Below, one piece after another: positions 48,894 through 52,533 of a DNA stretch of 64,000 nucleotides. Every line of letters begins with the position of its first letter. Position 1 is the first letter of the stretch. The notes under the pieces were generated by a model, which saw nothing but the letters and a program-made list of their open reading frames with translations, had not been told where the DNA came from and ran no database searches. The position numbers and the translations under genes are program-made. The DNA comes from Clavibacter capsici (lineage in GTDB: Bacteria; Actinomycetota; Actinomycetes; Actinomycetales; Microbacteriaceae): positions 1,922,001-1,986,000 of the forward strand of contig NZ_CP012573.1 of assembly GCF_001280205.1 (NCBI RefSeq), read 5' to 3'.

Positions 48894-49009
48894 GCGCGTC
48901 ATCCTGCCGCGCGAGCCCGCGACGCGCGAGGACACGGAGGGGATCGTGAGACCTCGTTCGTAGACTGGAGCACGCGGGGGTGCAGGGAGTCGGCCGCGAA
49001 CGGAGTCAC

Positions 49010-49771
49010 GTGCAGAGGATCCTCGGTGCCGTGCGCCTGGTCGCCGCGCTGGTGGCCGTCGTCGCGCTCGTCGGGGACTTCGACTACGTGCAGGGCTTCA
49101 CGACCTTCGCCGCCGAGAACTGGTTCAGCTACTTCACCACCCAGAGCGCCATGGCCGGCGTCGTCGTCCTCGCCGCGTCGGGCGTGCACGCGCTCCGCGG
49201 CGGCGTCGAGCCGCCGCTCATGGCGGCCGTCCGCGCCGTGGTGACCAGCTACGTGGTCGTGTCCGGCGTGGTCTTCGGCCTCATCGTGCTGGAGTCGAGC
49301 TCGCAGGCGTACTACGTCGAGGTGCCGTGGTCGAGCCGCCTGCTGCACTTCGTGCTCCCCGCGTACGCGCTCCTCGACTGGACCCTCGCGCCCGGCCGCC
49401 CGCGCGTGACCTGGAAGGCCGTGGGCTGGGCGATGCTGTTCCCCGTCCTGTGGTGCGCGTTCACGGAGGTCCGCGGCCCGCGCGTCGGCTGGTACCCCTA
49501 CTTCTTCCTCGACCCCGCGCAGGTGGGCGTGCCGCTCGGGATCGCGGCGTGGCTCGCGCTCGTGGCGGGCGTGCTGGCGGGCGTGACGGCCGTCGTGGTG
49601 GCGCTCAGCCGCGTCCGACCCGCGATCGCCGTGCCACGCGGACGGGCGCACCGGGACCATCGGGCGACGGACGCGGCGACGTCCGAGGACGGGGCGCAGC
49701 GCCTGTCCGCGCACGCATCGCCATCGACGCCGACGCCGACGCCGCGCGAGACGGCGCCCGCCGAGCGCTGA
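49010..49771 (+). CDS. Pr6Pr-family membrane protein
   Basis: Membrane protein with about six hydrophobic segments, the first at the N-terminus (RILGAVRLVAALVAVVALVG). FTTQSAMAGVVVL, WSSRLLHFVLPAYALLDW and GWYPYFFLDP are the conserved Pr6Pr stretches. The C-terminal 45 residues are hydrophilic with a Ser-Pro-Thr repeat. Function is unknown for the family. GTG 49010 has CGGAG upstream and a TAGACT box at 48961-48966 would give a leader of about 35 bases; a GTG at 48980 is in frame and possible. Confidence 0.75.
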   Translation: MQRILGAVRLVAALVAVVALVGDFDYVQGFTTFAAENWFSYFTTQSAMAGVVVLAASGVHALRGGVEPPLMAAVRAVVTSYVVVSGVVFGLIVLESSSQAYYVEVPWSSRLLHFVLPAYALLDWTLAPGRPRVTWKAVGWAMLFPVLWCAFTEVRGPRVGWYPYFFLDPAQVGVPLGIAAWLALVAGVLAGVTAVVVALSRVRPAIAVPRGRAHRDHRATDAATSEDGAQRLSAHASPSTPTPTPRETAPAER

Positions 49772-49818: not shown

Positions 49819-50565
49819 ATGACCGCCGCCGACGCTCCCCGCCCGCCGGAGGACGACTCCCGTCCCGCCCTCGCGCTGCGCTGGCCCTCCGTGATGACGC
49901 GCGACGGGGATCCGGAGGCCGCGGTCGTCGACGTGGTGAACGTCGGGGCCGCGCGGTGGATCCCCCGGGACGGCGACGCCTTCCTCGCGTTCGGCGCGTT
50001 CACGGAGCCCCACGCCCCCGTCCCCCGCATCGCCTTCGCCTTCGCGGGCGGACCGCGGGGCGCGGTGGCGCTGGACCCCGGCGACCGCACGCGCGTGCGG
50101 GTCGCGATCCCGGACGGCGACTGGGCGGAGCTGCGCCCCGGGCCGCACGACCTCCACGCCGCGCTCGTCGGCCCGCACGCGCGGCGGCCCGACCCCCTCC
50201 GCGTCAGCGTCACGGCCGAGGCGGTCGCGCGACGCCGGGCCGCCACCGCCGCCACCCGGGGCGGTCCCCCGACGGAGGAGGACCTGCGCCGGTCGTACGA
50301 CGCGCGCATCGCGTGGCTGCGGACGCTCGTCGCGGCCGCCGACGCGCGCGAGCCCCTCGTCGCGGAGCTCGCCGGCGTCGCGTCCCGGGAGGACGCGGTG
50401 GGTCGGATCCGCACGCTGCTCGACCTCGACTCGGAGCACGCGCAGCTGCTCCTGCACACGCAGCTGCAAGACCTCACGCCGTACGCCGCGCAGGGGACCC
50501 GGCGCGAGATCGCGGACGCCGTGCTGCGGCGGGACGCGCTCCCGCCGGCGTCGGATCCGGACTAG
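49819..50565 (+). CDS. Protein of unknown function with a GyrA-like C-terminal segment
   Basis: A 248-residue protein I cannot name. The first 140 residues form a beta-rich, Ig-like looking part (ALRWPSVMTRDGDPEAAVVDV). The last 90 residues read like the tower/coiled-coil part of gyrase subunit A: YDARIAWLRTLVAAADAREP, REDAVGRIRTLLDLDSEHAQ and LLLHTQLQDLT, comparable with the GyrA pattern of a helical EGL..AL...DEVI...R stretch followed by QAQAILDLRLQKLTG. It has no catalytic Tyr. GAGCCT lies six bases ahead of the ATG. It ends in a CTAG shared with the convergent amine oxidase gene. Confidence 0.6.
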   Translation: MTAADAPRPPEDDSRPALALRWPSVMTRDGDPEAAVVDVVNVGAARWIPRDGDAFLAFGAFTEPHAPVPRIAFAFAGGPRGAVALDPGDRTRVRVAIPDGDWAELRPGPHDLHAALVGPHARRPDPLRVSVTAEAVARRRAATAATRGGPPTEEDLRRSYDARIAWLRTLVAAADAREPLVAELAGVASREDAVGRIRTLLDLDSEHAQLLLHTQLQDLTPYAAQGTRREIADAVLRRDALPPASDPD

Positions 50566-52070
50566 GGCGTCGGCGTCGCGCCGGGCTCGTCCGTGGGCGT
50601 CGCGGTCGGGCCAGGCGTCGTGAGGAGCTCGGGATCCATGAAGGGCACGAGCGTGCGCAGCGCGGCCGCCCGCAGCGCCTGGTCGTCCAGGGCCGCGACC
50701 CGCTCCGCGGCGGCCGCGCCGACCTCGGCCATGAGCACGGGCTCGCCCGAGACGGGCATGAGGTTGTACCAGCGCGTGAAGCTGCCGCCCGCGTCGTAGG
50801 AGGTCCAGACGGTGGCCGTGGTCGACCAGAACGGCTCGGCGAAGCGCATCCAGATCCGGTCGGCGCGGCCGGGGCCGAGCGCGCGGAGGGCGGCCTCGTG
50901 CGACGACGGCAGCGCCGGGTCGAACGCGATCGCGCCCTCCTGCAGGACGCCGAGCGGCACGGTGACGACGACGCGGTCCGCCGAGAGCGACTCGCCGGAG
51001 CCGAGCCGCAGGCCCACCCGGCCGTTGCCGTACGCGATGCGCGAGACGGTGGACTCCCGCAGCACGTCGATGTCCTGGTCGCGCAGCAGGTGCTGCACGA
51101 GGCCCGCGAACCCGCCCGTGACGGCGACGTTGCCGACGGGCGCCGGCTCGTCGAGGCCGTGCGCGGCGGAGAGCTCGTCGGGCGCGGCGCCGTGGGCGAT
51201 CGCGACGTCGGTGGCGAGCAGCGCGGCGAGGGAGGCGGCGGGCGACGCGGCTCCGCCCTCCGTGCTGAGGGCGTCGCCGCCCGTCGCGTGGAGGCCCGCC
51301 GCGAGGCTGACCGCGCCGGGCTCCGCGAGGGCGTGGGCGCGCGCGGCAGCTATCGCGTCGGATCCCGCGCTCGACGGGTCCAGGACCCGGCCGTCGGGGC
51401 CCCGGTGCTCGGCGACGAGCGCCAGGCCGTAGCGGGAGATGCCCGCCGCCCGGACGGCGTCGCGGAGGACGTCGTCGTGGTCGGCCGCGAGCCACAGCGC
51501 GCCGAGCTCGGCGGGATGCGGCCACCCGGTGCCGCCCACGCCGCCGGCCGCGCGGATCCGGCCGCCGAGGTCGGCACGGGCCTCGACGAGGACGACGTCG
51601 TGGCCCGCGTCGCGGAGGGCGCGCGCGGCGGCGGTGCCCGCGATGCCCGCGCCGATGACCGCGACGCGCTCGGAGCCGGCGCCCGCGCGATCCACCTCGG
51701 CCGCCGCGCGGAGACCCGAGGCGTACGCGCCCGCGACCGTGCCCGGGCGGTCGGCGCTCGTGGCCTCGCCGGCGAAGAACACGCGCTCCGACAGGGGGCG
51801 CGCGAGGGCCTCGCGGTCGGCGCTCGTGGCGCCGGGGCGGAGGAAGCTGCCGGAGCCGCGGGCGAAGGGATCCCCCGCCCAGTCGGACCGCGCGAACGCG
51901 ACCGGCTGCGGGAGGCCGGCGACGCCGGCGGTGGGCGTGGGAGTCGGCGTCGCGGAGGGCGTGGCCGTGGGGGTCGCGGGGCTGGGCGTCGTCCGCGTGC
52001 ACGCCGCGAGGCCGAGGAGCGAGAGTCCCGACGCGGACGCGGTGAGGAAGGTGCGGCGGGAGATCGACAT
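50562..52070 (-). CDS. Lipoprotein flavin amine oxidase with permuted domain order
   Basis: A 502-residue exported flavoprotein. SRRTFLTAS at 4-12 is a Tat signal and LAAC with Cys24 a lipobox, so it is a Tat-exported lipoprotein, followed by a Pro/Thr linker. The FAD loop VAVIGAGIAG is at 136-145 and VLVEARADLGGRI at 160-172, followed by the substrate part of a monoamine oxidase. Oddly, the segment that normally ends such enzymes (DWAGDPFARGSGSF at 63-76, FFAGEATS at 98-105, GTVAGAYASGLRAA at 110-123) comes before the FAD loop, and the C-terminus stops at LRTLVPF plus a Pro/Thr tail. This is the order expected of a circular permutation. The substrate is unknown. Confidence 0.85.
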   Translation of the reverse strand: MSISRRTFLTASASGLSLLGLAACTRTTPSPATPTATPSATPTPTPTAGVAGLPQPVAFARSDWAGDPFARGSGSFLRPGATSADREALARPLSERVFFAGEATSADRPGTVAGAYASGLRAAAEVDRAGAGSERVAVIGAGIAGTAAARALRDAGHDVVLVEARADLGGRIRAAGGVGGTGWPHPAELGALWLAADHDDVLRDAVRAAGISRYGLALVAEHRGPDGRVLDPSSAGSDAIAAARAHALAEPGAVSLAAGLHATGGDALSTEGGAASPAASLAALLATDVAIAHGAAPDELSAAHGLDEPAPVGNVAVTGGFAGLVQHLLRDQDIDVLRESTVSRIAYGNGRVGLRLGSGESLSADRVVVTVPLGVLQEGAIAFDPALPSSHEAALRALGPGRADRIWMRFAEPFWSTTATVWTSYDAGGSFTRWYNLMPVSGEPVLMAEVGAAAAERVAALDDQALRAAALRTLVPFMDPELLTTPGPTATPTDEPGATPTP

Positions 52071-52113: not shown

Positions 52114-52533
52114 ATGCCCTCCGACGCCGAGCCGACCGTCGACGCCGGCGCGCAGGCCGCCGTCCGCGTGGACAGCTGGCTCTGGGCCGTGCGCGTCTAC
52201 AAGACGCGGTCGCAGGCGACGGCCGCGTGCCGGGCCGGGCACGTGCGGGTCGCCGACGAGCGCGTCAAGGCGTCGCAGTCGGTGCGACCGGGCGACGAGG
52301 TGCGGGTGCGGATCGCGGGCGCCGACCGGATCCTCGTGGTGCGCCGCACGCTCGTGAAGCGCGTGGGCCCCGCGGTCGCCGCGGAGGCGATGACCGACCT
52401 CACTCCCCCGCCGCCGCCGCGCGACGCCGCGCCCGCGACGGTCGTCCGCGACCGGGGCGCGGGGCGTCCGACGAAGCGCGACCGGCGCGAGATCGAGCGG
52501 CTGCGCGACCCCGAGGGGATCCGCGGGCGCTGA
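52114..52533 (+). CDS. S4-domain RNA-binding protein, Hsp15-like
   Basis: A 139-residue basic protein. The S4 domain fills residues about 18-75: VRVDSWLWAVRVYKTRSQAT, CRAGHVRVADERVKASQSV and RPGDEVRV match Hsp15 (HslR), which recycles stalled 50S subunits that carry peptidyl-tRNA. The C-terminus is Pro- then Arg-rich (RGAGRPTKRDRREIERL), a common RNA-contacting tail. Leaderless start six bases after TAGGGT. Confidence 0.88.
   Translation: MPSDAEPTVDAGAQAAVRVDSWLWAVRVYKTRSQATAACRAGHVRVADERVKASQSVRPGDEVRVRIAGADRILVVRRTLVKRVGPAVAAEAMTDLTPPPPPRDAAPATVVRDRGAGRPTKRDRREIERLRDPEGIRGR

Follow-up and report, generated by a model that had tools for sequence, protein, structure and literature searches.

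A probable natural circular permutant of the flavin-containing amine oxidase fold in Clavibacter and other bacteria

In flavin-containing amine oxidases the conserved segments follow one linear order, with the Rossmann FAD loop (block F) foremost, the remaining FAD and substrate domains (block M) behind it, and the block carrying the FAGE motif (block B) at the C-terminus. A gene of Clavibacter capsici encodes a protein in which block B precedes the FAD loop, and the question raised by this locus is whether such an order represents a natural circular permutation, an artefact of assembly, or an unrelated domain placed in front of a truncated enzyme. The window analysed here is a stretch of 64,000 nucleotides from contig NZ_CP012573.1, to which all coordinates refer. 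Translation of 50562-52070 on the minus strand gives a frame of 502 aa that starts with MSISRRTFL and continues to LAAC, and its parts are listed below.

50562..52070 (-), whole gene of the circularly permuted flavin amine oxidase, order B-F-M, 502 aa in one frame
51999..52070 (-), residues 1-24, twin-arginine signal (SRRTFL) and lipobox LAAC (21-24) with Cys24, predicted from the sequence and a pattern scan over representatives
51912..51998 (-), residues 25-53, Pro/Thr/Ser-rich tether, seen in the sequence, with a like stretch in other Microbacteriaceae members
51693..51911 (-), residues 54-126, block B, the C-terminal block of the family, now foremost (LSD2 alignment, block HMMs, residue conservation)
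51678..51692 (-), residues 127-131, new join from block B to the FAD Rossmann strand (block HMMs)
51474..51677 (-), residues 132-199, block F, Rossmann FAD loop with VIGAGIAG, E163 and GGR 169-171 (PF01593, LSD2 alignment, block HMMs)
51135..51473 (-), residues 200-312, interval from F to M, where much of the substrate domain is expected, judging by position within the family
50637..51134 (-), residues 313-478, block M, remaining FAD and substrate domains (PF01593, LSD2 alignment, block HMMs)
50856..50858 (-), codon of Arg405, which stands where the family has its flavin-facing Lys (MAO A Lys305; alignments)
50565..50636 (-), residues 479-502, Pro/Thr C-terminal tail, seen in the sequence of Clavibacter and some relatives

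Membership in the family was addressed with a profile search, in which PF01593 (Amino_oxidase) matched the 502-aa protein at 6.1e-49 with 167.9 bits, compared to a curated cut-off of 19.8. The match falls into three separate stretches, the best of which places residues 313-478 on profile positions 199-365 of 443. The same profile matched all 49 aligned permuted proteins (E<=0.001), and no NCBIfam family scored above its cut-off for the window protein among the best 25 of 111 matches. The order of the blocks is illustrated by a phmmer comparison with LSD2 (histone demethylase 1B, 4gu0_A). Residues 134-172 (F) align to 337-375 (i-Evalue 0.074), residues 316-476 (M) to 528-693 (2.7e-14) and residues 53-126 (B) to 700-773 (3.5e-8), i.e. 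the order is B-F-M in the window protein and F-M-B in LSD2. The F and B matches, far apart in LSD2 at the two ends of the matched region, lie side by side in the permuted protein. Conversely, the alignment points 476/693 (end of M) and 53/700 (start of B) are almost adjacent in LSD2 yet mark the far ends of the permuted chain, just as had been proposed when the chain was said to end where the terminal block would start. According to the block HMMs, B covers 54-126, F 132-199 and M 313-478 (positions taken from locus L153 minus 10 upstream residues), and the original prediction of a terminal block at 60-123 and an FAD loop at 136-145 was accurate within a few residues. Block B contains the motifs W64..DP..GS, FFAGEAT and PGTVAGA..SG, while the GxGxxG Rossmann loop of block F is followed by the expected E and GGR. 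On account of its B-F-M order the protein is filed as a permuted variant of PF01593. Each parent segment occurs once, in rotated order, with the old ends joined, and at the level of sequence the C-terminal-block-first order is a circular permutation.

Loci from other genomes were classified with the same block HMMs, which replaced a regex classification that proved too strict. Among 215 loci, 116 were permuted, 91 canonical and 8 unassigned, with none mixed; as several loci repeat one gene, these totals count loci rather than genes. The first batch of 199 contributed 112 permuted, 79 canonical and 8 unassigned loci, and a later batch of 16 another 4 permuted and 12 canonical ones. In 110 permuted loci the join between B and F measures 4-13 residues, with the median and both quartiles at 5, and the tail after M comprises 0-34 residues (median 7). 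The loop at the cut site spans 2-80 residues in 79 canonical loci (median 13), and the cut thus sits in a loop that tolerates changes in length. The notion that both new ends are Pro/Thr linkers held for the N-terminal tether, whereas the C-terminal tail is limited to Clavibacter and some relatives.

Conservation at the cofactor site was compared between 43 permuted and 30 canonical rows. G140, G142, G145, E163, G169, G170 and R171 of block F occur in 43/43 permuted rows. In the moved block, G101, E102 and A115 are invariant on both sides (43/43 and 30/30), G119 is found in 42/43 permuted versus 30/30 canonical rows, and T111 in 38/43 versus 22/30. Tyr fills the aromatic position behind GS in 25/30 canonical compared to 18/43 permuted rows; the window protein has Gly74 there. 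The moved-block residues that we take to face FAD, with LSD1 and polyamine oxidase structures in mind, are the E of FAGE and the T and A of GTVxGA; these are about equally conserved in permuted and canonical rows.

The rearranged gene recurs well beyond the window. In Clavibacter the whole gene is present in 17/18 genomes at 80-100% identity, and the remaining genome (G003, a draft of about 620 contigs) gave a weak partial match only. The B-F-M order was found in the 17 full-length Clavibacter loci and in L001-L010, which include relatives in Naasia, Microbacterium, Agromyces and a MAG labelled Nocardia; the remaining 56 of the 66 named loci are canonical by block HMMs. With a probe spanning the join (residues 55-200), join-crossing matches were obtained in at least 135 of 398 Microbacteriaceae genomes and 31 of the 85 genus groups sampled, these and the following genome counts being lower bounds because most genome searches, the Clavibacter search excepted, scored about 9-40 first-look candidates per genome. 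Six of the 135 genomes cover less of the probe (G326, G068, G373, G380, G294 and G029), and the match in G373 has an internal stop. A canonical-order relative, L142 of genome G703, also belongs to the Microbacteriaceae, i.e. both orders coexist in this family.

Outside the Microbacteriaceae, the permuted gene was detected in 11 other actinobacterial family groups: in 4/396 genomes of the order sample (f15 and f16, two each), in 14/394 of the class sample (f35, f37, f43, f48, f51 and f54; one gene is cut by a contig end) and in 4/296 of the phylum sample (f72, f80 twice, and f82). In Pseudomonadota, the phylum of the Reyranella locus L016, 3/229 genomes carry it. Samples of 131 Chloroflexota and 97 Myxococcota genomes yielded no permuted gene at E<=1e-20; the matches found there cover one block only or run past a stop (L213), and all fetched ones are canonical. 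The scores of profile A2 are bimodal, with confirmed permuted genes at 8.4e-34 or better and the others at 2.6e-25 or weaker. Most of the weaker matches comprise one block; a few nominally span the join, of which the fetched ones (L179, L213) have the canonical order. Weak spanners in the actinobacterial samples include G840 (36-150, at 7.9e-23) and G662 (2-120, with an internal stop), and the two that were fetched, L179 and L139, are canonical by block HMMs. Weak join-spanners such as G907 and G1107 were excluded from the permuted counts. Plasmids gave partial matches in 2 records, neither of which spans the join.

Two explanations would remove the need for a permuted enzyme. The idea that an ordinary gene was rearranged during assembly or sequencing has nothing to recommend it except the oddity itself, and the same join recurs in 17/18 Clavibacter genomes, in at least 135/398 from Microbacteriaceae, in other families and in another phylum. 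An assembly error is ruled out by these independent genomes, and its probability is practically nil. Because the same order recurs in so many related bacteria, it is a natural circular permutation; the suggested search for this order in other Microbacteriaceae did find it. Alternatively, the N-terminal block could be a separate accessory domain or a pseudo-copy, the true C-terminal block having been lost. The conservation of G101, E102, A115 and G119, about as high as in the canonical C-terminal block, argues against a block B that sits apart from FAD. Moreover, only a few residues, almost constant in number, connect the block to the Rossmann strand, and the search for a second terminal block returned no second copy of B or F in 191 classified frames. 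We regard this explanation as very unlikely. Block order, single copies, recurrence across genomes and the FAD-site residues retained in the moved block all point to the circular permutation that had been suspected from the window.

It is highly probable that the protein is a natural circular permutant of the flavin-containing amine oxidase fold (PF01593; polyamine oxidase/LSD1-like). The sequence shows the C-terminal block ahead of the Rossmann FAD loop, the old ends linked through about 5 residues and the new ends placed in the length-variable loop. In a Rossmann FAD domain, the helix that follows the FAGE strand brings the chain back to the side on which the first strand begins, and a turn of 5 residues could therefore produce an ordinary beta-alpha-beta crossover. 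We infer that the moved block keeps its usual strand and helix over FAD, and that this helix may run straight into the first Rossmann strand, which would leave fold and cofactor site intact. Synthesis and FAD loading probably take place in the cytoplasm, followed by Tat export of the folded protein, which is probably anchored by a lipidated Cys24 on the Pro/Thr tether. Its substrate is probably an amine.

The predicted export as a Tat lipoprotein, put forward together with the permutation, is supported by the motifs of the window protein, which combine a twin-arginine, a hydrophobic stretch and a lipobox Cys (SRRTFL...LAAC24). In a rough pattern scan, a Tat-like signal was recognised in 47/54 permuted versus 18/50 canonical representatives, and a lipobox in 39 versus 4 of the same sets. 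The seven permuted representatives lacking a signal are L009, L158, three f15/f16 rows and two Pseudomonadota rows, and L204 starts almost directly with block B. Predicted export is thus not tied to the permutation, which would not seem to need it. Some lineages probably acquired the tether, or else others lost it.

How often the permutation arose was addressed with trees of sequences rotated to canonical order. One large clade holds all Microbacteriaceae permuted rows of the tree and a second permuted clade consists of other actinobacteria, while a few single permuted rows stand on an unresolved backbone. The f15/f16 rows are joined with two Pseudomonadota rows at a support of 100/100. This grouping of L204 and L205 with L135, L137 and L138 would fit a transfer between phyla. 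The five proteins are also alike in having no recognised signal peptide and in keeping the flavin-facing Lys (see below).

One old permutation event is possible. The competing reading is that of several independent permutations at the same loop. It draws on the free trees, which need 4-5 label changes (bootstrap ranges 3-5 and 3-6), on the finding of a single origin in 0% of 200 bootstrap trees, and on the starred branches of the quick tree, which force at least 2 changes. An AU test left a single permuted clade unrejected, however, both for 43 versus 30 rows (p 0.13) and for a second set of 38 versus 28 rows (p 0.207). The permuted forms also have the same cut and a similar join in common, and the tree backbone is poorly resolved. 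We give repeated permutation somewhat less than an even chance. The fuller account, in which one ancient permutation founded a two-phylum lineage and the Microbacteriaceae form became a membrane-tethered, extracellular protein that lost the Lys and now acts as an amine dehydrogenase or flavin-based sensor, is tentative and stands well short of even.

The Lys in question faces the flavin; LSD1 Lys661 presumably occupies the same column as MAO A Lys305 and Arg405 of the window protein. It is present in 40/50 canonical rows and 20/51 permuted rows. Among Microbacteriaceae permuted rows only 3/32 have Lys, and 29/32 show a replacement (T, L, S, A, V, R, N or Q). In the other permuted rows Lys is retained in 17/19, the remaining two having R; L204-L206, inspected by eye, also have Lys, which brings the count to 20/22 permuted proteins outside the Microbacteriaceae. 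As 10/50 canonical rows have no Lys either, the residue, which is R405 in the window protein, is typical of the family rather than strictly defining. Because most permuted forms outside the Microbacteriaceae keep Lys, the permutation probably predates its loss.

With the O2-activating Lys replaced by Arg here and exchanged in most of the Microbacteriaceae branch, little or no H2O2 is expected. The window protein would be a poor oxidase that passes electrons to another acceptor in a dehydrogenase-like manner, or may have lost redox catalysis. In the latter case the Microbacteriaceae branch would be a catalytically dead lipoprotein, a scaffold or sensor that retains FAD binding. Its 29/32 representatives devoid of the flavin-facing Lys would fit this, as would the inactivity of K305R, the exchange to Arg, in human MAO A (PMC8009472). 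The same report describes K305M as reduced normally by substrate but slow to be reoxidised by O2, while other acceptors restore its turnover, so a variant devoid of this Lys can still oxidise substrate (PMC8009472). The key flavin-site residues of the branch, moreover, remain conserved. A dead protein is unlikely, albeit far from negligible. The Microbacteriaceae member L100 has Q in the Lys column, a residue tolerated by MAO A. For nicotine-degrading relatives, one study proposes that the mobility of this Lys sets oxidase versus cytochrome c dehydrogenase behaviour (PMC12272882).

The gene neighbourhood gave few hints of function. A convergent frame at 49830-50565 (+), about 244 aa with the start as taken, shares its last four bases with the end of the oxidase gene and has no Pfam or NCBIfam match. 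An S4-domain gene at 52114-52533 is divergent from the oxidase gene. A Pr6Pr-family membrane protein is encoded at 48980-49771 (+), as judged by NCBIfam NF038065 (4.2e-61; no Pfam match). Its gene adjoins the permuted gene convergently in L004, L008 and L010 (Naasia and Agromyces included), is one gene off in the window and about 5 kb off in L005, and no match was found in L006; in this listing the flanks of L007 and L009 are cut and the Clavibacter loci are left out. Such a neighbourhood suggests vertical inheritance rather than function. No cytochrome c family matched among the four window neighbours scanned, nor did these neighbours indicate a pathway for the substrate. Seven regions around permuted genes outside the Microbacteriaceae were compared with one another, not with the window, and beyond the oxidase two gene pairs matched (L216/L219 and L216/L217).

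In summary, the locus represents a real and widespread variant of a known enzyme family, permuted and apparently not described before, in which a key residue is in addition naturally absent. As a permutant kept over long evolution it shows which loop tolerates a cut, and it suggests that the C-terminal helix can feed the first Rossmann strand directly, which would be useful for engineering split or sensor forms. With the branch naturally devoid of the oxygen-activating Lys, the question of oxidase or dehydrogenase can be put to the test in variants supplied by nature. Permuted proteins of this kind may look like fragments to homology tools that chain domains in order. A survey of partial domains names circular permutations among the causes of false partial hits; its main text mentions neither 'oxidase' nor PF01593 (PMC4432964). 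Among the best 60 of 298 PDB matches no best stretch spans the permuted join. The original prediction knew of no circular permutation in this family, and indeed no description of a permuted flavin amine oxidase was found in the open-access literature, a scope that leaves out most subscription papers.

Many structures have been solved for the MAO/LSD1/polyamine-oxidase fold, a family of drug targets, and MAO A, NicA2 and the dehydrogenases related to NicA2 all have the canonical order. With LSD1/LSD2, spermine oxidase and polyamine oxidases the window protein shares the Rossmann FAD loop, the block of FFAGEAT and PGTVxGAxxSG, and the LGxG...V.L.F..FW region; it differs from them in its N-terminal position of the C-terminal block, in Arg405 and in lipoprotein export as predicted by motif. 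Human MAO A belongs to the same family and has the same Lys position; there the Lys is the native residue and the Lys305 variants lost it through engineering (PMC8009472), while in the window protein it was lost naturally. NicA2 and related flavin amine dehydrogenases that use cytochrome c are of the same superfamily, and their low use of O2 models the chemistry predicted here (PMC12272882). The NicA2-type reconstructed dehydrogenase ancestors of that work have a Lys that is present but mobile, compared to Arg405 in the window protein (PMC12272882). The circularly permuted SAM-dependent methyltransferases offer the parallel of a Rossmann-like fold that was naturally cut and rejoined with its binding mode kept, although their cofactor and family are unrelated to those of the flavin amine oxidases (PMC1282579).
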